In this document: positions 1,585-47,187 of the stretch, piece after piece
Position numbering within the stretch: position 1 is the first letter of the stretch
Layout of the letters: each line of letters starts with the position of its first letter
IMG/VR virus record: IMGVR_UViG_3300047324_000048
Location: 1-47,187 of that record
Strand: one strand, 5' to 3'
DNA length: 47,187 bases
Origin: a virus
Position numbers and translations under genes: made by a program
The notes under the pieces: generated by a model
What the model was told of the DNA's origin: nothing
The model's input: only the letters and a program-made list of their open reading frames with translations
The model's database searches: none

Positions 1585-2606
1585 GTCAATCCCTCCATGA
1601 GCATCGCGTCCAGCGCAACGTCGTCGACGGTCGGGCGCCGCTGCGTTTGTGCCGTGCGTGGCTTGCGGTGGCAGCAGGGGACGAGCCTCTCCTCCTCCGG
1701 GGCCATATCCCAAAAATCCATCGTTTCGCCAACCCAATGCGCGTGCGCCCGGAATGGTGGGCCGCCCCGGTTCTTGCTCACGATGATCTCGCAAATGCGG
1801 TCGCGGCTCGGGTTGCCGTAGTACGGGCGCCACAGCAGAATGGCGCGATCGGCGCGCTGGCTGATACGCGTGGTGTCCTGGAAGTGGTCGTTGCGCGGCC
1901 GACCGATGGCGTCGCCCTTGAGCTGCGAGAGGAGCACGACCGCGATGCCGGATGCTTTAGCAAACCGCCCGAGATACTCGACGATCTTCGAGGCGTCCGA
2001 GCCCGGCTGCCACCCGGCGATTTCGCGGGCGTGGTCGATGATGAGGACCGCCGCGGACAGGTCCTCAGCGTACTTCGTGAGCGCCTTCACGGAGCGATCG
2101 GCACGGTTCTTGGGCGCGGGAACGTGGAGGTCCATTTCGGCCAGCGCCTTGCGGGCTGCGCGATAGTCGTCGGTCTGCCGCACCCGCTCGTTGAGCATCG
2201 TGGAACGGCCGGTGAGCATGAGCTTACACAGACAGGCATCGCGGATTTCCTCGCGGGTCATTTCGAGCGTTTGCAGCACCACCCGATGCTCCCGCGAGTT
2301 CGCCAGCGCGATCTTCGTGCCCAGCGCCGTCTTGCCGTGCCCCTCACGGGCGCCGATCGCGAGAAGGTCGCCCGGCTTGAACCCGTGCATTTTCTCCATG
2401 ATCGCCGGGAGGCCGATCGAAAACGGCGTCACCTCGGGCTCGATCGATTCGGGTATCGCCGCGATGCGGGTATCGTCCGGCTCGTATTCCGCTCCCTTGC
2501 CCAGGAGCAGGTTGAACGCCTTGAGGCTCTCGGCCGCGCGGTTTGGGTCGTTGAGGATCAGCGCATCGAGTTCGAGTTCGGCTTTGGAGGCGTAGGGCCG
2601 CATCAT
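1581..2606 (-). CDS. dnaB-like: replicative DNA helicase, DnaB-type RecA core
   Basis: Hexameric helicase that would unwind DNA at the phage fork using ATP. The 341-residue protein has only a short N-terminal region before the RecA-like core, unlike host DnaB, which has an extra N-terminal domain. Walker A is at residues 85-93 (GAREGHGKT), the Walker B strand AAVLIID ends in Asp191, and VVLLSQL with Gln228 is the DnaB sensor strand. A basic segment SKNRGG near the C-terminus fits the DNA-binding loop and arginine-finger area. It overlaps the initiator gene upstream by ATGA (2603-2606), so initiator and helicase are made together, as in phages that load their own helicase. Confidence 0.9.
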   Translation of the reverse strand: MMRPYASKAELELDALILNDPNRAAESLKAFNLLLGKGAEYEPDDTRIAAIPESIEPEVTPFSIGLPAIMEKMHGFKPGDLLAIGAREGHGKTALGTKIALANSREHRVVLQTLEMTREEIRDACLCKLMLTGRSTMLNERVRQTDDYRAARKALAEMDLHVPAPKNRADRSVKALTKYAEDLSAAVLIIDHAREIAGWQPGSDASKIVEYLGRFAKASGIAVVLLSQLKGDAIGRPRNDHFQDTTRISQRADRAILLWRPYYGNPSRDRICEIIVSKNRGGPPFRAHAHWVGETMDFWDMAPEEERLVPCCHRKPRTAQTQRRPTVDDVALDAMLMEGLT

Positions 2607-3379
2607 GCTTGCGCCTCCCGGTAGTCGGGCTCCCGGAAGTCGGGATGGAGCGGCACGTCCCCAGGAAGGTCGGGGAAATCGGGGCCGTCAGGATCGCTGC
2701 CCCACGGCCCGCGCACGACGCTCGACGGGCCTTTCGCCAGGAGGTTCTGCACGTAGTCCATCCGCCGGCAAGGACCGCCCAGGGAAGTGGACTTGCGTTC
2801 CCAGGCATCAAGAATCTGCTCGTAGCTCGCGCCGGCCTTAGCCATATCGGCCACGATCTGCCGATTGATCTTGACCCACCGGGTCCAAGTCATCCCAACC
2901 AAGGTCGGTTCAATGCTTGGCCTCACCGCCTCCAGGAAGTCTTTCGCCACCACGTTCTCAGGAGCGTTAAAATCAAAGCGCAAGGCTGGCTTTTTACGAG
3001 CGGGCTGCTTTGCTGCTGGTTGTCGTATCTCAGGTTTTGCTTGAGCTAATCCTGGTAGACGAATACCAGGTATCTCAGTATCAGGCAAAGCCTTAGATTC
3101 GAGAATAGAGATACAATTACGTGCGCGCGAAGGCGCGTCGGGGTTGCGTCGGCGTTGCGTCGGCGTTGCGTCGTTTGTGCTCGTTTCGTGCGTCGGCTCT
3201 GCGTCGGAGTTGCGTCGGCGACGCGTCGGAGCGAATTTGGCAAGCCACCCCCGCAAGGCTGATTCTGTGAACGAAAGCCCTTGGTCGCGCAGCGCTCTGC
3301 CGATGGATCGGACGGACGGTTCGAAGCCGCGGGACTCGTAGAATTGCCACAAGGCGATGGCCTCTTGTTGTGGGTTCAT
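2603..3379 (-). CDS. replication initiator or helicase-loader protein with internal origin repeats
   Basis: The 258-residue protein has an N-terminal helix-turn-helix (about residues 8-48, SVRSIGRALRDQGLSFTES then a basic recognition-like helix). A low-complexity Arg/Asn/Thr linker follows at about residues 50-86, encoded by an 11-bp iteron array, then a basic hinge with Lys/Pro, and a C-terminal helical domain (VGMTWTRWVKINRQIV onward) with an acidic Pro/Asp tail. This architecture matches lambda O-like initiators, which bind iterons lying inside their own gene and recruit helicase. The DnaB-type gene follows with an ATGA overlap. I see no DNA polymerase or primase motif. The role as initiator is inference from architecture, repeats and neighbour. 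Confidence 0.65.
   Translation of the reverse strand: MNPQQEAIALWQFYESRGFEPSVRSIGRALRDQGLSFTESALRGWLAKFAPTRRRRNSDAEPTHETSTNDATPTQRRRNPDAPSRARNCISILESKALPDTEIPGIRLPGLAQAKPEIRQPAAKQPARKKPALRFDFNAPENVVAKDFLEAVRPSIEPTLVGMTWTRWVKINRQIVADMAKAGASYEQILDAWERKSTSLGGPCRRMDYVQNLLAKGPSSVVRGPWGSDPDGPDFPDLPGDVPLHPDFREPDYREAQA
3039..3229. other. candidate replication origin
   Basis: The iteron array is flanked on its left by a stretch at about 3039-3120 that is clearly richer in A and T than the surrounding coding DNA. That stretch holds two inverted repeats: CCTGGT/ACCAGG at 3051-3070 and GTATCTC/GAGATAC at 3070-3114. Iterons beside an A+T-rich unwinding element within the initiator gene is the lambda-type origin arrangement. 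The DnaB-type helicase gene lies just downstream. The origin call is inference; the repeats and composition change are seen directly. Confidence 0.55.
3135..3229. repeat. 11-bp iteron array inside the initiator gene
   Basis: GCGTCGG recurs at 3135, 3146, 3157, 3190, 3201, 3212 and 3223, with GCGTCGT at 3168, every one exactly on an 11-bp grid. The slot at 3179 is degenerate. Most copies are preceded by TT or a close variant, giving a unit of about NNTTGCGTCGG. The period is not a multiple of three, so it is not explained by a simple codon-repeat expansion, and it places each site on nearly the same face of the helix. This is the usual form of initiator-binding iterons. Confidence 0.75.
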
Positions 3380-3440: not shown

Positions 3441-3478
3441 AAAGCAAAACCTCCACAAAGTTTGCGTTCGTGGAGGTT
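3441..3478 (-). terminator. hairpin with T-rich tail, candidate terminator or attenuator on the minus strand
   Basis: AACCTCCAC (3448-3456) and GTGGAGGTT (3470-3478) form a perfect 9-bp stem with a 13-base loop. Read on the minus strand the stem is followed by TTGCTTTTG, a short broken T tract. It lies in the 246-base gap between the HNH gene and the initiator gene, so it could terminate or attenuate transcription entering the initiator-DnaB-ERF part of the operon. I saw no gene in the rest of this gap (3380-3625). Confidence 0.5.
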
Positions 3479-3625: not shown

Positions 3626-4003
3626 TCAACCGTCCGGCGGCATTTTTCGCACCGGCAGCACCTTGGCGACCGCCGCGATCGCGTCCCAGGCGGCTTGCTC
3701 CAGCGCCGGCGGCACGCGCACTTTCAAGCCCTTGGCGAGCGCCGGGTCATCGAAGGCTACGTGGCACCTGCGGCAGGCCCAGGCCACGACGTCCGGGTGT
3801 TCCCGGGCCTTGCCGCATTGCGTGCGCGGATAGATATGGGCGGCCTCCTGGCCGTGGTGGGCGCAGCGCACCCACCCTACGGCCTGGGCCACGAGCTCGA
3901 ACTCGCACCGCCCGCGGGCGCGGTTGTAGGCGTGGATGCGCTGTGCGTTGGCGGCCTTGGTGACGCCGGGTTTGATCCGCCGCCGCATCCTGGTGCGTTT
4001 CAT
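3626..4003 (-). CDS. HNH endonuclease
   Basis: HNH proteins use a beta-beta-alpha metal finger to nick or cut DNA; phage versions often assist packaging or are homing-type nucleases. The 125-residue product, starting at ATG 4003-4001, has a very basic N-terminus (MKRTRMRRRIKPG). It then has GRCEFE with the first cysteine, CAHHGQEAAHIYPR carrying the His pair of the catalytic strand, CGKAREHP, and WACRRCHVAFDD with the last Cys-Cys-His group. The four cysteines give the usual structural zinc site. An in-frame extension upstream exists, but the ATG at 4003 overlaps the previous stop as ATGA and is the better start. The gene sits beside replication genes rather than the terminase, so a recombination or replication role is as likely as packaging. 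Confidence 0.8.
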   Translation of the reverse strand: MKRTRMRRRIKPGVTKAANAQRIHAYNRARGRCEFELVAQAVGWVRCAHHGQEAAHIYPRTQCGKAREHPDVVAWACRRCHVAFDDPALAKGLKVRVPPALEQAAWDAIAAVAKVLPVRKMPPDG

Positions 4004-4143
4004 GCGTCCTCCGGGAATCCGTCGACGAGGAACCCGTCGATCGCGGTGAGGTCGCCCGTAGGGGTGTGGCAGGCGCATGTGCAGTCCCGGCCGTCGTTGA
4101 GCATGTGCATACCCTGGTCGCAGTCGCGCTGGCAGGGGCTCAT
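4000..4143 (-). CDS. small Cys-rich protein, 47 aa
   Basis: A 47-residue gene between the helicase and the HNH gene, coupled to both by ATGA overlaps (4140-4143 and 4000-4003). The N-terminal half is cysteine-rich (SPCQRDCDQG, then RDCTCACH), giving five cysteines and nearby histidines that could hold a zinc ion. The C-terminal half is acidic and ends in FPEDA. No known family recognised. The double overlap and consistent operon direction are the main support that it is translated. Confidence 0.65.
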   Translation of the reverse strand: MSPCQRDCDQGMHMLNDGRDCTCACHTPTGDLTAIDGFLVDGFPEDA

Positions 4144-5852
4144 CGTCCGAACGCCTTATCGAGCAGGACCGACGCCTGGCCCTTGGTCATCCCCTCGGGG
4201 ATATCGTCGCGGGTAGCGAACACTTTTTTCTTGAGCAGCCAATGTATCTGGCTCGCGGTCGGCGGGTCGCCGCGCCACTTGGCCTCACGGTCGATCAGGC
4301 GGCCGACGTCCGGGAACCTGGTAGCGATGAACCGATCTGCCGCGCCGAACGCGTCTTCGATCGTGCCGACCGCTGCGGTCACGCATTGCCACGGGTTGCG
4401 CTGACCATCCCGGAAGTACGTCTCGTATTGCCCCAGGGTGTTGGCCCGGATCGCGATATCGAGTTGCTTGCCGACCGATATGCCGTAGGTGTCGGGAGCG
4501 GTTGATATCCAGGCGTATTTCGAGTTCGCTTCGACGACGGGATCGAGCGCCGTTGCGCCGAGCAGGTCGACCGTGAGGACGTCGACGCCCGCCGCCAAGC
4601 GCTCCATGAGGTCCGCGAGCTGCGCGGCGCTCAGGCATTTCTTTGCGAGTCGCGGGTCGATCGATTCGTACTTGCCGGCGGTGGCGAACAGGTCGTCCCC
4701 CTGGGCGTCAAACTCCGCGGGCAGCCCGGCGAGGGTGGCGGCCGAGACGCAGGTCGCCTTGCGGGTAACGTCCTGAACGTCGATGATGAGGCAGTCGGTC
4801 TTGCCGTCGGCAAGGCGCAAGCCGCGGCCGACCATCTGCGTAAGCAGCAGCGAGGATTTCGTGGGCCGTCCGAGCACGATGGCGCTCACGCTCGGAACGT
4901 CGAAGCCCTCGGTGAGGACCCCGAAGTTCGTGAGCACCTGGAGCTCGCCGCGGGCGAAGGCGGCCAGGTCCGCTGCGCGGTCCTCCTTGGGCATCGCGCC
5001 CCAAATCGGCGCGGCCCTGAACCCGGCCGATACGGCGAGCGAGGCGAGCTCGTGCGCGTGCTCGACGCCGGCCGTGAACACGATGGTCTGCCGATCGGCG
5101 CAGTAGTCCCGCAGCGCCTTGGCGATGAGCAGGTTGCGGGCCTCGACGTTCACGGCCTCTTGGAGCTCGCCTTGGGCGAAGTCGCCGGCGCGCGTCCTAA
5201 CGGCCGACAGGTCGACCGAGGTCTGGAGCCGGATGCCCCGAGGGCGAACGAGGTAGTCCCGGGCCACCAGCTCGCGGATGCCGTACTCGCACGCGATGCG
5301 CTGATAGACGTCGCCAAGCGGCTTGCCGTCCGTGCGGTTCGGGGTGGCCGTCACGCCAACGAGGCGCGTCCGGCCCTCCATGCAGCCGAAGTAGTCGAGT
5401 ATGTCCAGGTAGCTGTCGGCGGTCGAATGGTGCGCCTCGTCGACGATGATCAGGGCGAAGGCGTTCGGGGCAAAGTCTGCGCGGCGGCGATCGTGGAGCG
5501 TCTGGACCGACGCGACGACGACCGAGCGCTGAAGCGGGTTGGAGAAGGCGAACAGGCCGTCCCCGCTATGCCGGGTGGCACGGCGGGCGGCCTGCTCGAT
5601 CTCCACGTGGAGGGCCGGGTCGACCATCGCGATTTTCGCGGCGGCCTGGTCGAGGAGTTCCTCGCGGTGAGCGAGCACCAGGGCGCGCTCGCCCGGCTTT
5701 AGGGTGGCCTCGATGAGCGCGGCGAACAGGATCGTCTTGCCCCCGCCGGTGGCCATCACCGCCAAATCCCGGCTGACGCCGGGCGGCGGGTTGAGGAGCT
5801 TGTCGAGGGCGTCGGCCTGGTAGTCGCGCAGGCTTTGGAACGTGGCGGTCAT
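4140..5852 (-). CDS. SF2 DEAD/DEAH-box helicase
   Basis: Superfamily 2 helicase of 570 residues, starting MTATFQSLRDYQADAL, where the Q/RDYQ block marks the usual N-terminal motif. Walker A is TGGGKT at residues 35-40, the DEAH box is at 138-141, motif III-like VTATPNR is near 168-174, and motif VI QMVGRGLR is at 339-346. This is the layout of phage UvsW-like or restriction-type SF2 helicases, which remodel branched DNA and R-loops in recombination-dependent replication. The C-terminal ~150 residues contain no further motif I recognise. A longer in-frame extension upstream lies over the neighbouring gene; the ATG at 5852 forms ATGA with that gene's stop and is preferred. Confidence 0.88.
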   Translation of the reverse strand: MTATFQSLRDYQADALDKLLNPPPGVSRDLAVMATGGGKTILFAALIEATLKPGERALVLAHREELLDQAAAKIAMVDPALHVEIEQAARRATRHSGDGLFAFSNPLQRSVVVASVQTLHDRRRADFAPNAFALIIVDEAHHSTADSYLDILDYFGCMEGRTRLVGVTATPNRTDGKPLGDVYQRIACEYGIRELVARDYLVRPRGIRLQTSVDLSAVRTRAGDFAQGELQEAVNVEARNLLIAKALRDYCADRQTIVFTAGVEHAHELASLAVSAGFRAAPIWGAMPKEDRAADLAAFARGELQVLTNFGVLTEGFDVPSVSAIVLGRPTKSSLLLTQMVGRGLRLADGKTDCLIIDVQDVTRKATCVSAATLAGLPAEFDAQGDDLFATAGKYESIDPRLAKKCLSAAQLADLMERLAAGVDVLTVDLLGATALDPVVEANSKYAWISTAPDTYGISVGKQLDIAIRANTLGQYETYFRDGQRNPWQCVTAAVGTIEDAFGAADRFIATRFPDVGRLIDREAKWRGDPPTASQIHWLLKKKVFATRDDIPEGMTKGQASVLLDKAFGR

Positions 5853-7373: not shown

Positions 7374-7562
7374 ATGGTGGATGCTGAGGTGGCGGAGGTG
7401 GTTCGTCGGCGGGTGGTGGTGGTGAAGGTGGAGCGTGGTGCGCGTTGGTATGGGATTGCGGAGTCGGTTGGGGTTTCGGCAAGTCGGTTGCGTGGGGCGA
7501 TGCTTCGTGGTCGCCGGATGAAGTCGGAGCTGGCGGTGCGTCTGCTGCTGTGGTCGCTGTGA
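7374..7562 (+). CDS. small helix-turn-helix regulator, 62 aa
   Basis: The 62-residue product begins MVDAEVAEVVRRR and has a helix-turn-helix of Cro/XRE style at residues 25-52: WYGIAESVGVSASRLRGAML, with Gly-Val-Ser at the turn, followed by a basic RGRRM and a C-terminal helix. The frame is open further upstream, but coding appearance begins at this methionine. The gene lies at the boundary between the divergent operons, the usual site of a Cro-like switch protein. Its stop codon TGA is the first part of the 11-bp repeat array at 7560-7603, so that array is the obvious candidate operator. Regulation is inference. Confidence 0.55.
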   Translation: MVDAEVAEVVRRRVVVVKVERGARWYGIAESVGVSASRLRGAMLRGRRMKSELAVRLLLWSL

Positions 7563-7603
7563 GGGTGTTGTGAGGGTGTTGTGAGGGTGTTGTGAGGGTG
7601 TTG
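7560..7603 (+). repeat. four tandem 11-bp direct repeats, candidate operator
   Basis: TGAGGGTGTTG is repeated perfectly at 7560, 7571, 7582 and 7593. The array ends just before the expected -35 position of the promoter at 7626-7633, one repeat per helical turn, directly downstream of the small HTH gene. This geometry fits binding sites for a repressor or activator of the rightward early operon. Confidence 0.65.
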
Positions 7604-7644: not shown

Positions 7645-7995
7645 ATGACGAAAGCGAAAGGTTCTGCGGTGGAGCGGGAAGTGCCCGTGGGGGCTGCGCC
7701 GAATGACGGTCGCCCGGGTTACGCCACGGGTGAGGTGCGGACGGTATCGGATGCGTGGGTGCGGCCGGCGCCTGGTGACTACGTGAAGTACGGCGAGTTT
7801 GGTCCTGGGCGCGACAAGACGGGCATCTATGCCGGGGCGGTCAACGGTGCGGCGGTGGTGGTGAGCGACGCGCATGACGAGATCGTGTTTTGCGTGGAAC
7901 AGGCGCTCACGGTGTTGTACCGGTCGTTTTACAGCCCGGTCTTTTACAACGGCCAGCGTAAGCCGATCCCTGCGGCGATGCGCACGGCGGGGTAG
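7645..7995 (+). CDS. hypothetical protein, 116 aa, first gene of the early operon
   Basis: Protein of 116 residues, unknown family. The N-terminal third is basic and disordered (MTKAKGSAVEREV), the rest looks beta-rich, with GDYVKYGEFGPG and a GIYAGAVNGAAVVVSDA segment that resembles a small SH3- or KOW-like barrel. It contains the peptide NDGRPGYAT, encoded by a 28-bp sequence that recurs almost exactly at 10032-10059 in another early gene. No good Shine-Dalgarno precedes the ATG, and the likely promoter start is only a few bases upstream. Role unknown; as the first early gene it may act on the host. Confidence 0.65.
   Translation: MTKAKGSAVEREVPVGAAPNDGRPGYATGEVRTVSDAWVRPAPGDYVKYGEFGPGRDKTGIYAGAVNGAAVVVSDAHDEIVFCVEQALTVLYRSFYSPVFYNGQRKPIPAAMRTAG
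7702..7729 (+). repeat. 28-bp repeat, copy 1
   Basis: Begins AATGACGGT and ends TTACGCCACGG. It matches 10032-10059 at 27 of 28 positions (C at 7711, A at 10041). Both copies are read in the same frame and give NDG(R/S)PGYAT. Confidence 0.8.
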
Positions 7996-42039: not shown

Positions 42040-42509
42040 AGCGCATCACCGTTCGGGTGCCTGAAGATCACCACCGCACTTGGAAACGGCGCGCTATTCT
42101 TATGCCCGCCGAACTTCAGCCGACCGCGAAGAAACCGTATCTCACCCTTCATGCAGTAGTCGTGCCACCAGGCGGTGTCGGTGCGCGCCGGGAGCAAACA
42201 GACAACGGTCGCGCCCTTTTGCGCCTCCTCGTAAGCCTTATGAATCCATTGCTTGATTACGCGCCCGTAGGGTGGGTTCATCCAGCAGACGTTCCGCCTA
42301 CTAGAACTGCTTGTAAACGGAGCCTACGTTATCCACGAAAGACGCAGCGCGTTTTGATCTTTTGTAATGAAGTGTGGGCACTTTGCATTCTCGGGCGTCG
42401 CGCACACATCCAGCGTGAACCCGAACTCCGCGTCGAGCGCGGCGAATAACTTCTGCGGCGTTTCCCACTCCGGTGTGGCGCTTGAATAGTGTACGGCCAT
42501 GCGGCTCAC
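42036..42509 (-). pseudogene. Dam-type DNA N6-adenine methyltransferase interrupted by an in-frame amber codon
   Basis: The protein adds methyl to adenine N6. The first 61 codons (VHYSSATPEWETPQ, FTLDVCATPENAKC, DQNALRLSW) are the N-terminal and SAM-site half of the phage Dam family, then a TAG at 42326-42324 ends the frame. Without leaving the frame, 14 codons later the second half resumes with CWMNPPYGR, the catalytic (D/N)PPY motif, followed by GATVVCLLPARTDTAWWHDY and SAPFPSAVVIF. Without the TAG the gene is one 157-codon methyltransferase of ordinary length. Readthrough, a sequencing error and a true mutation are all possible. Confidence 0.75.
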
Positions 42510-43261
42510 GGTGCGTTCTCCAAAAGCGCGATGAGTAGGTCGGCCATCTTACTCCACGCCGCGCTCTCCGCCGCGTATGCCGCGTATGCCGCGCTCCGCG
42601 CCGCGCTCTCTGCCGCGTTTGCCGCGTATGCCGCGCTCTCTGCCGCGCTCCGCGCCGCGCTCTCTGCCGCGTTTGCCGCGTATGCCGCGCTCTCTGCCGC
42701 GCTCCGCGCCGCGCTCTCTGCCGCGCTCTCTGCCGCGTTTGCCGCTCTCCATGCCGCGCTCTCTGCCGCGCACCATGCCGCGTATGCCGCCGCGTTCCCC
42801 GCCGCGCTCGCGTCAACGGGCTCACCGTTGCCCCAGGCAGCACAGAGCCGCGCAATCTCTGCGACAGTATCCTTCACGATAGGGTGACCAATGCCCGGCG
42901 TTATCGAGGCGTCCGTCAATATGCCAGCGAGGAACTGCCACTGCACCAGCGACAGGTCCGCACCGGGGCGTATGGCGGCCATGAACCGCTGCGGCCATTC
43001 CATCGCTGCCTCGTTGGGCAAGTGCTCGAAGATACGGTCCTCTAGCCATGCGAGCGCCTCGGGAATGCCGAATCGCGGCTCGTACTCGGCATGGTTGCCA
43101 CTGTGGATCGTGCATCCGACCGCGCAGCCCTTGCCGTACTCCCAATACCGGCCCTTAACCAGTTGGTCGGCTTTGCGGTGCAGGTCTAGCTGCGCGAGGA
43201 TGGCGTCCTTTTCACTTTGCTCGCCGTGGTAGGCGATGAGTTTGGCGGTTGTCGTCGTCAT
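42506..43261 (-). CDS. Ala-rich repeat protein, 251 aa
   Basis: Starts at ATG 43261. The N-terminal ~170 residues look globular: a helical start (LIAYHGEQSEKDAILAQLD), KGCAVGCTIHSGNHAEYE with a Cys pair and histidines, and a helix LVQWQFLAGILTDAS. Residues about 170-240 are an Ala-rich low-complexity tract (AAESAARSAAESAAYAAN and variants) encoded by near-identical 15- and 9-bp units. A final helix closes the protein. Similar tracts occur in other phage hypotheticals. The globular part seems real; the repeat may act as a rigid helical linker. Confidence 0.6.
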   Translation of the reverse strand: MTTTTAKLIAYHGEQSEKDAILAQLDLHRKADQLVKGRYWEYGKGCAVGCTIHSGNHAEYEPRFGIPEALAWLEDRIFEHLPNEAAMEWPQRFMAAIRPGADLSLVQWQFLAGILTDASITPGIGHPIVKDTVAEIARLCAAWGNGEPVDASAAGNAAAYAAWCAAESAAWRAANAAESAAESAARSAAESAAYAANAAESAARSAAESAAYAANAAESAARSAAYAAYAAESAAWSKMADLLIALLENAP

Positions 43262-43461
43262 GCGTTCTCCTTTGTGGTGGTGGGGACGGATTGATCCAGG
43301 TGGATACTTGAGCGATTGTGCAGCCGCGCGTTTTCGTGAGCCATCCCCGGCACGCGAAAGGAGCGGCTCATCGTCTTGCAAGCATTGCAGATGACAACGT
43401 ACTGTGTCTTGCCGCGCTTCGTCGCGGTGTGCGCGACGTAGGCCGTTTGAACGTCCCTCAT
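43258..43461 (-). CDS. hypothetical zinc-type protein, 67 aa
   Basis: 67 residues, coupled by ATGA to both neighbours. VAHTATKRGKTQYVVICNACKTMSRSF (broken here) shows a basic part and one CxxC knuckle; further histidines HENARLHN follow. Could be a small zinc-binding or RNA-binding protein. Not recognised. Confidence 0.55.
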   Translation of the reverse strand: MRDVQTAYVAHTATKRGKTQYVVICNACKTMSRSFRVPGMAHENARLHNRSSIHLDQSVPTTTKENA

Positions 43462-43934
43462 TTGCTCTGCTCTCCACGCACGGCTTGGGGCTGAAACTCA
43501 TGCGAGTAAATGTGCGCCAAGAAATGCTCTTGCTGTGTGTACCCGCAATCGTCTACCACGCAACGGGTCTCTGGCTCGTCAATAATGGCGAGGAGTCTCG
43601 CCCCTGAGTAGCCACCGCGCTCGATACTCAGGCGTATTCGCTGGAGCTTTGAGTCCGCTGCATTACACTCGTCGCTCAGGTGCGACAGTTCGCTGCGCAG
43701 TTCAGCGAGATCGTCTATCAGTCGGTCCCGCTCTGCGCGCACGGATTCAAGTTCGCGCCGCACGTTCGAGAGTGTCTCATTCTCGCGCTGCAGGGTAGCG
43801 CGCTCGGCGCGCAGGCGTTCGATTTCGTCGACAATCTGATCGTACATGCCGCCGTAGTCTATGCGCGCGAGACGCTCAACGCGCGCTTTCTTACGCAGCC
43901 ACTCGATCATATCTTGCGCTGCAGTCTCAGCCAT
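43458..43934 (-). CDS. coiled-coil protein, 158 aa
   Basis: Residues about 30-110 form one continuous coiled coil (QIVDEIERLRAERATLQ, ENETLSNVRRELESVRAERD, LAELRSELSHLSDEC) preceded by a helix MIEWLRKKARVERLARI. The C-terminal ~35 residues have a CVVDDCGYTQQEHFLAH element with Cys/His, possibly zinc-binding. Likely a dimeric or oligomeric scaffold for another protein. Function unknown. Confidence 0.7.
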   Translation of the reverse strand: MAETAAQDMIEWLRKKARVERLARIDYGGMYDQIVDEIERLRAERATLQRENETLSNVRRELESVRAERDRLIDDLAELRSELSHLSDECNAADSKLQRIRLSIERGGYSGARLLAIIDEPETRCVVDDCGYTQQEHFLAHIYSHEFQPQAVRGEQSK

Positions 43935-46621: not shown

Positions 46622-47187
46622 GCTTTTGCCCCTGCATCGGCCTTGATCGAAGCCATCGCTCCCTCGTTGGTCGCGTAGAAATCGGGAATCGGCTTGTTGG
46701 GCCGCGAGGCGGCGTAGATCAACGCCCCCGCCGCCGCTGGACCAACGAGATTCTCAAGGACGCGCCCGCCTTCGCCGGCAAGCGCTACGGCCCAGCCCGC
46801 GCGGCAATGCGTCGTTTCGCAGGTGTGCCAATTGGTCATTTCGAGCGCGCCGCCCGCGTCGATCGCCGCGAGAATTCGCTCGTCGATGTTTTCAACGACG
46901 AGCTTCGTAGGGAGAACGGCGTCCCTGAGAACGGCGTCCCTGAGAACGGCGTCCCTGAGATCGGCGTCCCTGAGATCGGCGCCCGTGAGATCGGCGCGCG
47001 TGAGATCGGCGCGCGTGAGAACGGCGCCCCTGAGATCGGCGCGCGTGAGAACGGCGCCCCTGAGAACGGCGTCCGTGAGAACGGCGTCCGTGAGAACGGC
47101 GCCCGTGAGAACGGCGCCCCTGAGATCGGCGCGCGTGAGAACGGCGCCCCTGAGAACGGCGTCCGTGAGAACGGCGCCCGTGAGATC
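46618..47187 (-). CDS. pentapeptide-repeat protein, N-terminus beyond window
   Basis: The gene enters from the right edge with about 18 in-frame pentapeptides of A(V/D)LxG/xD type (ADLRG, AVLTD, ADLTR), which build a right-handed quadrilateral beta-helix of the kind that can mimic DNA. The repeats end at AVLPTKLVVENIDE. The C-terminal ~90 residues contain HTCETTHCRAGWAVALAGEG, a Cys/His-rich helical cap, and a tail. The stop is coupled by ATGA to the exonuclease start. Length, start and true N-terminus are unknown. It may inhibit a host enzyme such as gyrase, but no evidence decides. Confidence 0.75.
   Translation of the reverse strand, partial: DLTGAVLTDAVLRGAVLTRADLRGAVLTGAVLTDAVLTDAVLRGAVLTRADLRGAVLTRADLTRADLTGADLRDADLRDAVLRDAVLRDAVLPTKLVVENIDERILAAIDAGGALEMTNWHTCETTHCRAGWAVALAGEGGRVLENLVGPAAAGALIYAASRPNKPIPDFYATNEGAMASIKADAGAKA
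46912..47187 (-). repeat. 15-bp tandem array encoding the pentapeptides (continues past the edge)
   Basis: About 18 units of GAGAACGGCGTCCCT and near-identical variants, differing mainly at two positions (AC or TC, and the four bases after GGCG). The units are so alike that the array looks newly expanded, and the window ends inside it. Confidence 0.85.

Follow-up and report, generated by a model that had tools for sequence, protein, structure and literature searches.

Results and discussion

Organization of the putative replication region

The window analysed here is a whole virus record of 47,187 bp. On its minus strand, an open reading frame for a protein of 258 amino acids (positions 2603–3379), which is proposed to encode the replication initiator, directly precedes a gene for a DnaB-like replicative helicase (minus strand, 1581–2606; Pfam DnaB_C, E 1.2e-24; phrog_19). 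The initiator stop and the helicase start fall in a 4-bp overlap of the two genes, and no separate helicase-loader gene is present between them. No relative of the helicase was found in IMG/VR, and all of the 40 phage matches listed for it share less than 30 % identity; likewise, no relative of the portal protein was found in phages. Upstream of the initiator, a hairpin resembling a terminator (minus strand, 3448–3478) represents a possible transcription-unit boundary, detected by consensus scan only, with matches of this kind being no commoner than in shuffled sequence.

The putative initiator is composed of an N-terminal helix-turn-helix (residues 1–51, encoded at 3227–3379 on the minus strand), a linker predicted to be disordered, and a helical C-terminal domain. 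The predicted third helix (residues 39–46) contains E39 and R43. An AlphaFold2 model based on five sequences (the window protein and four relatives) places helices at residues 3–46 and 140–215, with three confidently predicted helices in the former segment, while nearly all residues from 53 to 137 have a pLDDT below 50; a model computed without the relatives was poorer. No Pfam or PHROG family matched the window initiator, and PHROG searches with this protein and its four relatives revealed neither phrog_2514/186 (G38P) nor the O family. A fold search with the five-sequence model retrieved nothing at E ≤ 0.001 from PDB or BFVD, and VIA-align of residues 1–56 gave unspecific rows at Z about 5 (Fur family and others). 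Since similarity to a known initiator family was not detectable, the assigned role rests on gene position, anatomy and the predicted helix-turn-helix.

Searches with the whole initiator yielded no close relative in IMG/VR, phages or 84,980 species genomes, and no relative was found with the C-terminal part as sole query. The helix-turn-helix as only query retrieved L315, and an alignment of the window protein with L315 retrieved L317, L318 and L319, all from IMG/VR. These four relatives share 29–37 % identity with the window initiator, and the helix-turn-helix of L315 is 55 % identical to that of the window at the protein level. In L315 and L319, too, a gene for a DnaB-like helicase lies downstream of the initiator. 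The records of L317 and L318 contain no match to the window helicase, and both may use a host helicase; in L317 the gene following the initiator (3645–4772) presumably encodes a DNA methyltransferase, as suggested by its N-terminal sequence TSPPYWGLRDYG, rather than a helicase.

Candidate iteron array in the putative initiator gene

An array of direct repeats extends from 3135 to 3229 on the minus strand, within the initiator frame in which a previous sequence-only reading had located it. On the coding strand the repeated unit reads CGACGC(A). Eight exact GCGTCG copies (plus strand starts at 3135, 3146, 3157, 3168, 3190, 3201, 3212 and 3223) follow a strict spacing of 11 bp, and the slot of the grid at 3179 is degenerate (GCTCGT). 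The core is followed on its 3' side by G in seven copies and by T in one, and preceded by T in six of the eight, the two outermost copies having C instead. TRF reported a period of 11 with 8.6 copies over the same 3135–3229, in agreement with the original description of eight GCGTCGG/T copies on an 11-bp grid of 95 bases with one degenerate slot. No second GCGTCG cluster was detected among all positions of this word across the 47,187-bp window, a record that is possibly incomplete. GC skew, which had been named as a means of checking the origin, proved uninformative, with no sharp inflection near 3.1 kb.

In a recoding test the protein was kept fixed and codons were redrawn from eight window genes (5000 recodings). 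None of these synonymous recodings placed eight cores on the nine grid slots (best recoding, seven), and none reached the lag-11 score of the window (34; recoded mean 23.2, sd 2.5). An independent grid statistic was likewise matched by 0 of 2000 recodings. Arg-Arg at the cores demands the codon CGA, which accounts for 18 of the 341 Arg codons in the eight window genes counted. The 11-bp period is not divisible by 3, so that the array passes through all three reading frames and thereby imposes a repeated linker (RRRNSDAEPTH ETSTNDATPTQ RRRNPDA). Such a linker would be tolerated because it is predicted to be disordered; the array and the adjacent A+T-rich part both map to this stretch of the protein.

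Arrays were found at the equivalent place in all four relatives, each with a core other than that of the window: GGACGC in L317 (gene positions 152, 185, 207, 229 and 240), GGAACA in L318 (173, 195, 206 and 217), ACCGCA in L319 (190, 201, 212, 234 and 256) and GGAAGC in L315 (150, 171, 193, 203 and 214). The phase is strictly 11 bp in the former three and about 10–11 bp in L315. Exact 6-mers on one 11-bp grid number five in L317, four in L318 and five in L319, in each case reached by 0 of 2000 recodings. In L315 only two cores share the exact grid, a count matched by 169 of 2000 recodings; the strict-grid result is weak here owing to the spacings of 21, 22, 10 and 11. By the lag-11 score alone, 71 (L315), 32 (L317), 69 (L318) and 395 (L319) of 2000 recodings attained the observed value, and the excess is modest for each relative singly. 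When the mean over the four relatives is taken (window excluded), the top four among lags 3–44 are 11, 22, 44 and 33. On this equal DNA period, the linker residues of the relatives are unrelated to those of the window. The sequence-only reading had staked its origin proposal on homologues also carrying a periodic array, with iterons conserved while residues vary. Repeats are present in four of four relatives and significant on the strict grid in three; place and phase are kept and the residues do vary, but the letters of the core change as well.

A+T-rich stretch and conserved 14-mer

The stretch at 3030–3119, proposed to represent a DNA unwinding element, contains 60 % A+T compared to a genome mean of 36 %, a value exceeded by none of the 47098 windows of 90 bp into which the genome was scanned. 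Both of the inverted repeats previously ascribed to an A+T-rich neighbour of the array were recovered: CCTGGTA-N6-TACCAGG (3051–3070; fold z −3.1), located inside this stretch, and GTATCTC/GAGATAC (3070–3076/3108–3114). The hairpin of the CCTGGTA repeat region is strong in three of the five sequences (window, L315 and L318), not in L317 and L319. In addition, a direct repeat GTATCTCAG occurs on the plus strand at 3025–3033 and 3070–3078, the GTATCTC part of which is found inverted at 3108–3114. An A+T excess is clear in L315 and small in L317, L318 and L319 (0.43–0.44 versus gene means of 0.35–0.39).

The block directly 3' of the array is nearly identical in all five sequences, comprising TTCGCGCGC in most and then the 14-mer GTATCTCTATTCTC (minus strand, 3101–3114; 11 of 14 pyrimidines). 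The latter is exact in the window, L315 and L317, and carries one mismatch in L319 and two in L318. Apart from it, the genes of the window and L315 share no exact match of at least 10 bases, and among shuffled linkers a longest match of length 14 between the two was obtained in 0 of 2000 cases. The joint GCCTTCGCGCGC between array and A+T-rich part (minus strand, 3123–3134) recurs as an exact 12-mer in L318 and in similar form in L315 and L317. The 14-mer is translated as CISILE in the window, and as VSLFS, VPLLS or VSLVS in the relatives, i.e. in another frame, which argues that the DNA and not the protein is conserved. Together with the arrays of other cores at the same place in the relatives, this supports the earlier claim of selection acting on DNA. 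A promoter or a DnaA-trio was considered as an alternative function of the A+T-rich 14-mer.

11-bp arrays in G38P-like initiator genes

When IMG/VR was scanned for three GCGTCG words at 11-bp spacing, 79 loci were retrieved; a similar scan of bacterial genomes yielded 115. No match to the window initiator's own sequence was found among the array-bearing loci. In 31 of the 79 viral and 10 of the 115 bacterial loci, the array is located in a G38P-like gene, directly after the winged helix. This second initiator family is homologous to G38P of phage SPP1 (29.9 % identity, E 3e-8), and 34 of 34 members hit phrog_2514. The array is accordingly not private to this phage, its core and its phase being shared with another family of initiators. 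At least four copies with diverged spacers were present in 29 of 81 arrays from the 11-bp scan (14 of them from G38P-like genes, 10 from a single actinophage gene class and 5 from other places), compared to 0 of the 38 loci from a control scan at 10-bp spacing.

Relatives of the G38P-like family were also gathered with the winged helix as query, the array being left out, and the best 80 of 459 (L234–L313) were analysed; the seeds came from the GCGTCG scan, and 15 of the 80 loci reside on contigs of that scan. Lag 11 alone ranked first in 53 of 79 linkers from these best 80 of 459, with 7 ties and 19 linkers favouring another lag, while in control parts of the same genes it was sole best in 10/80, 6/80 and 5/79. 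With the scan contigs left out, lag 11 was sole best in 39 of 64 testable loci and tied in 6. A+T content peaks at 0.58 some 80–120 bp past the winged helix (locus mean, 0.42).

In SPP1 gene 38, an A+T-rich run is preceded by five AACGACA-like units spaced on an 11-bp grid, and lag 11 tops lags 7–23. The origin repeats of SPP1 are termed 'AB boxes'. According to a paper on the SPP1 genome, gp38 binds the oriL direct repeats within gene 38 with nanomolar affinity, and the A+T-rich region is the unwinding element. For Staphylococcus aureus phage 80alpha, a G38P-like gene is reported that is not complementable in trans, which its authors took as a sign of an origin within the gene (background sources: PMC5615212, PMC6316719, PMC5499656, PMC11447400, PMC4488673).

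Of 12 named phage genes, that of SPP1 among them, six had lag 11 as best or joint best (SPP1, Sulfitobacter pCB2047-A, Vibrio 1.276.O, Enterococcus EH-TP1, Bacillus Pony and Pelagibacter HTVC202P), the signal of Pelagibacter HTVC202P being weak and its position in the linker not clear. Lag 22 was best with 11 a close second in Staphylococcus phi575 and SAP33; the G38P-like initiator gene of S. aureus SAP33 has one of the strongest arrays (lag 11, 39/44). In Anoxybacillus A403 lag 22 ranked best and lag 11 third, and in Bacteroides BS-TP2 lag 12 was best. In the G38P-like genes of Pseudoalteromonas SL25 (L322) and Vibrio 1.167.O (L323) lag 23 was best, a period of about two turns after the winged helix, as in lambda.

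Recognition helix and core

Covariation was studied in 43 of the 80 G38P-like loci, namely those with a core fitting [CG]GNN[AG]C in at least three grid copies. Their cores are GACGC (16), GGGAC (14), GAGAC (4), GATAC (4) and others (5). Loci with GACGC have E/D at position 73 and R at position 77 (16/16 each), those with GGGAC have K at 73 (13/14) and D/E at 77 (10/14), and those with GATAC have Q at 77 (4/4). The wing holds the locus's own core 48–49 bp before the linker in 40 of the 43 loci, compared to a mean of 11.5 and a maximum of 20 wing matches when cores were permuted between loci (2000 permutations). Further core copies are often seen in the wing at −60 and −72. With core copies in the wing, the G38P-like origin may reach into the folded DNA-binding domain and influence which residues occur there.

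In the window family, the two members with GACGC (window and L317) have the helix 3 motif ExxLRGWL in common, the GGAA members display DxDLFLWL (L315) and RxDLYAWL (L318), and L319 (ACCGCA) possesses another helix. The co-occurrence of an acidic-x3-Arg helix with GACGC in both families is suggestive, the window family contributing two sequences. Because related sequences are non-independent and z-scores consequently overstate independence, the covariation is taken as support and not as proof.

Comparison with known origins

Among known systems, SPP1 oriL resembles the window most closely, rather than the lambda origin. As in the window, the direct repeats of oriL reside inside the initiator gene, between the DNA-binding domain and the C-terminal part, on an 11-bp grid with an A+T-rich run on the 3' side and helicase genes thereafter. 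Differences lie in the DNA-binding domain (winged helix of ~105 amino acids in G38P versus helix-turn-helix of ~50 amino acids in the window protein, without detectable homology), in the G39P loader gene between initiator and helicase of SPP1, which the window lacks, and in the second array of SPP1 (oriR), for which no counterpart was found in the possibly incomplete window record. G38P-like initiators in general (phrog_2514/186, annotated 'DnaD-like helicase loader'), including those of Staphylococcus aureus SAP33, Bacillus Pony, Enterococcus EH-TP1 and Sulfitobacter pCB2047-A, share with the window the 11-bp arrays after the DNA-binding domain, and one clade among them also the GACGC core and the acidic-x3-Arg recognition helix. 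However, sequence similarity was not detected in any domain, and the core copies of the wing are absent from the window. By sequence, the window initiator is thus not a G38P; the region would belong to the kind of origin that lies within the initiator gene, as a new variant.

The lambda origin likewise lies inside the initiator gene, with iterons and then a 3' A+T-rich, strand-asymmetric stretch (gene O; PMC4488673), and is followed by an overlapping gene that serves helicase loading. In contrast to the 8–9 slots of 11 bp in the window, lambda has four iterons of 18–19 bp spaced 20, 24 and 23 bp, which places SPP1 oriL closer. The window lacks an O-type protein, and the gene after the initiator encodes the helicase itself rather than a loader. 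The label 'lambda-like' therefore suits location and layout, not the iterons. In plasmid origins of the RepA/pi type, initiator sites are directly repeated beside an A+T-rich element; these iterons typically measure about 17–22 bp, lie outside the rep gene and are read by Rep_3-type winged helices. No Rep_3-type Pfam match was obtained in the window.

Other repeats and 11-bp loci

Further tandem repeats were identified in the window. A perfect 11-bp repeat TGTGAGGGTGT with an unrelated core (7558–7603, 4.2 copies) is located in a region of short genes just before an ORF starting at 7645. A compound repeat with units GCCGCGCTCTCT/GCCGCGTAT (42558–42809) overlaps an ORF at 42506–43501 on the minus strand that matches phrog_3416. 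At 46912–47185, 18 copies of a 15-bp unit GAGAACGGCGCCCGT are found within an ORF running off the end of the record and matching phrog_31265 (function unknown).

About 20 of the 79 viral GCGTCG loci belong to one actinophage gene class (protein LTTQVRRIADAL), in which three to five GCGTCG copies with diverged spacers occupy an 11-bp grid close to where the coding sequence of a small protein AVVRALDALTTQVRRIADAL begins (L012, L018, L030, L041, L044, L046, L048, L049, L053, L057, L061, L066, L075; variants L011, L017, L022, L031, L052, L056, L063). Their coding is, presumably, Actinobacteria-like, and the repeats may be either a DNA array or a coding helix. The loci from bacterial genomes (L081–L195) include many perfect 11-mer tandem repeats with TGCGTCG, often outside an open frame; such repeats are present several times per genome in Chitinophaga sp. 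YR627 and are recurrent in Prevotella. A classification of all 11-bp GCGTCG loci as iterons was rejected, many of the bacterial ones being such perfect and often frameless 11-mers.

Alternative explanations

Binding-site arrays look alike whatever their use, and this one might act as an operator for autorepression by the initiator or by another helix-turn-helix protein, or as a partition or incompatibility site. The terminator-like hairpin just upstream of the initiator gene would be in line with an operator, and some plasmid iteron systems serve as operator and origin alike. Nevertheless, such functions are improbable: the array is situated about 150 bp inside the coding region, where it adjoins the genome's most A+T-rich stretch and the conserved, pyrimidine-rich 14-mer directly before the replicative helicase gene, and no ParA/ParB-like gene was recognised among the scanned ORFs, many of which lack a match. 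Moreover, the equivalent layout of SPP1 is a described origin.

Two further explanations are both very improbable. Were the linker motif DAxPTxxRRR selected as a protein repeat and the DNA period secondary, its presence in the second initiator family would be accounted for. Yet the cores are lost upon synonymous recoding, the motif needs the codon CGA (18/341), 11 bp is no codon multiple, the relatives have unrelated residues on an equal DNA period, and the 14-mer persists although its reading frame differs. A neutral process duplicating an 11-bp unit in tandem could draw on the many bacterial pattern matches that consist of perfect 11-mers and often lack an open frame, and on the perfect 11-mer array of the window itself (7558–7603). 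Against this, the core of the array at 3135–3229 is kept while its spacers differ, arrays with unrelated cores recur in place in the G38P-like family and in all four relatives, and at least four copies with diverged spacers are a property of 29/81 arrays at 11-bp spacing versus 0/38 in the spacing-10 control.

Proposed mechanism and conclusions

The region 3025–3229 is most probably a phage replication origin embedded in its own initiator gene, a reading to which we assign a probability of about 0.85. The array, its phase, the A+T maximum, the gene order, the recurrence with other cores and the out-of-frame 14-mer are established as sequence features. Binding by the helix-turn-helix, melting, helicase loading and origin activity are inferred from the anatomy and from SPP1 and lambda. 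One turn of B-DNA comprises about 10.5 bp, so that sites 11 bp apart lie nearly on one face of the DNA. Copies of the initiator would bind the CGACGCA cores via the N-terminal helix-turn-helix, one per helical turn, and the bound monomers would align head to tail on that face. The resulting row may wrap or strain the DNA such that the 3' A+T-rich, pyrimidine-rich stretch containing the 14-mer opens, where the helicase encoded by the next gene could be loaded by the C-terminal domain of the initiator or by a host loader.

On a broader scale, chances are about even that 11-bp iterons in the linker represent a general type of origin in tailed phages, so far without a name and shared by at least two initiator families that show no detectable homology to each other, in which the core drifts with the recognition helix while phase and position stay fixed and the linker is dictated by the DNA. 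In the literature searched, which covered few subscription papers, no account of phage initiator genes commonly sharing an 11-bp phase was found. If the design is general, the combination of GACGC with acidic-x3-Arg in both families would constitute a convergent recognition code. Since reader (recognition helix) and sites are carried by one gene, these loci form a natural co-evolution experiment, and the passage of the array through three reading frames cleanly separates selection on DNA from selection on protein. Most phage origins are unmapped, and an 11-bp array after the DNA-binding domain of the initiator would provide a simple sequence signature for them, detected here both in an orphan phage family and among the G38P-like initiators to which SPP1 and other named phages belong. 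If the design holds, replication origins and initiator DNA specificity would become readable from sequence in very many uncultured phages.
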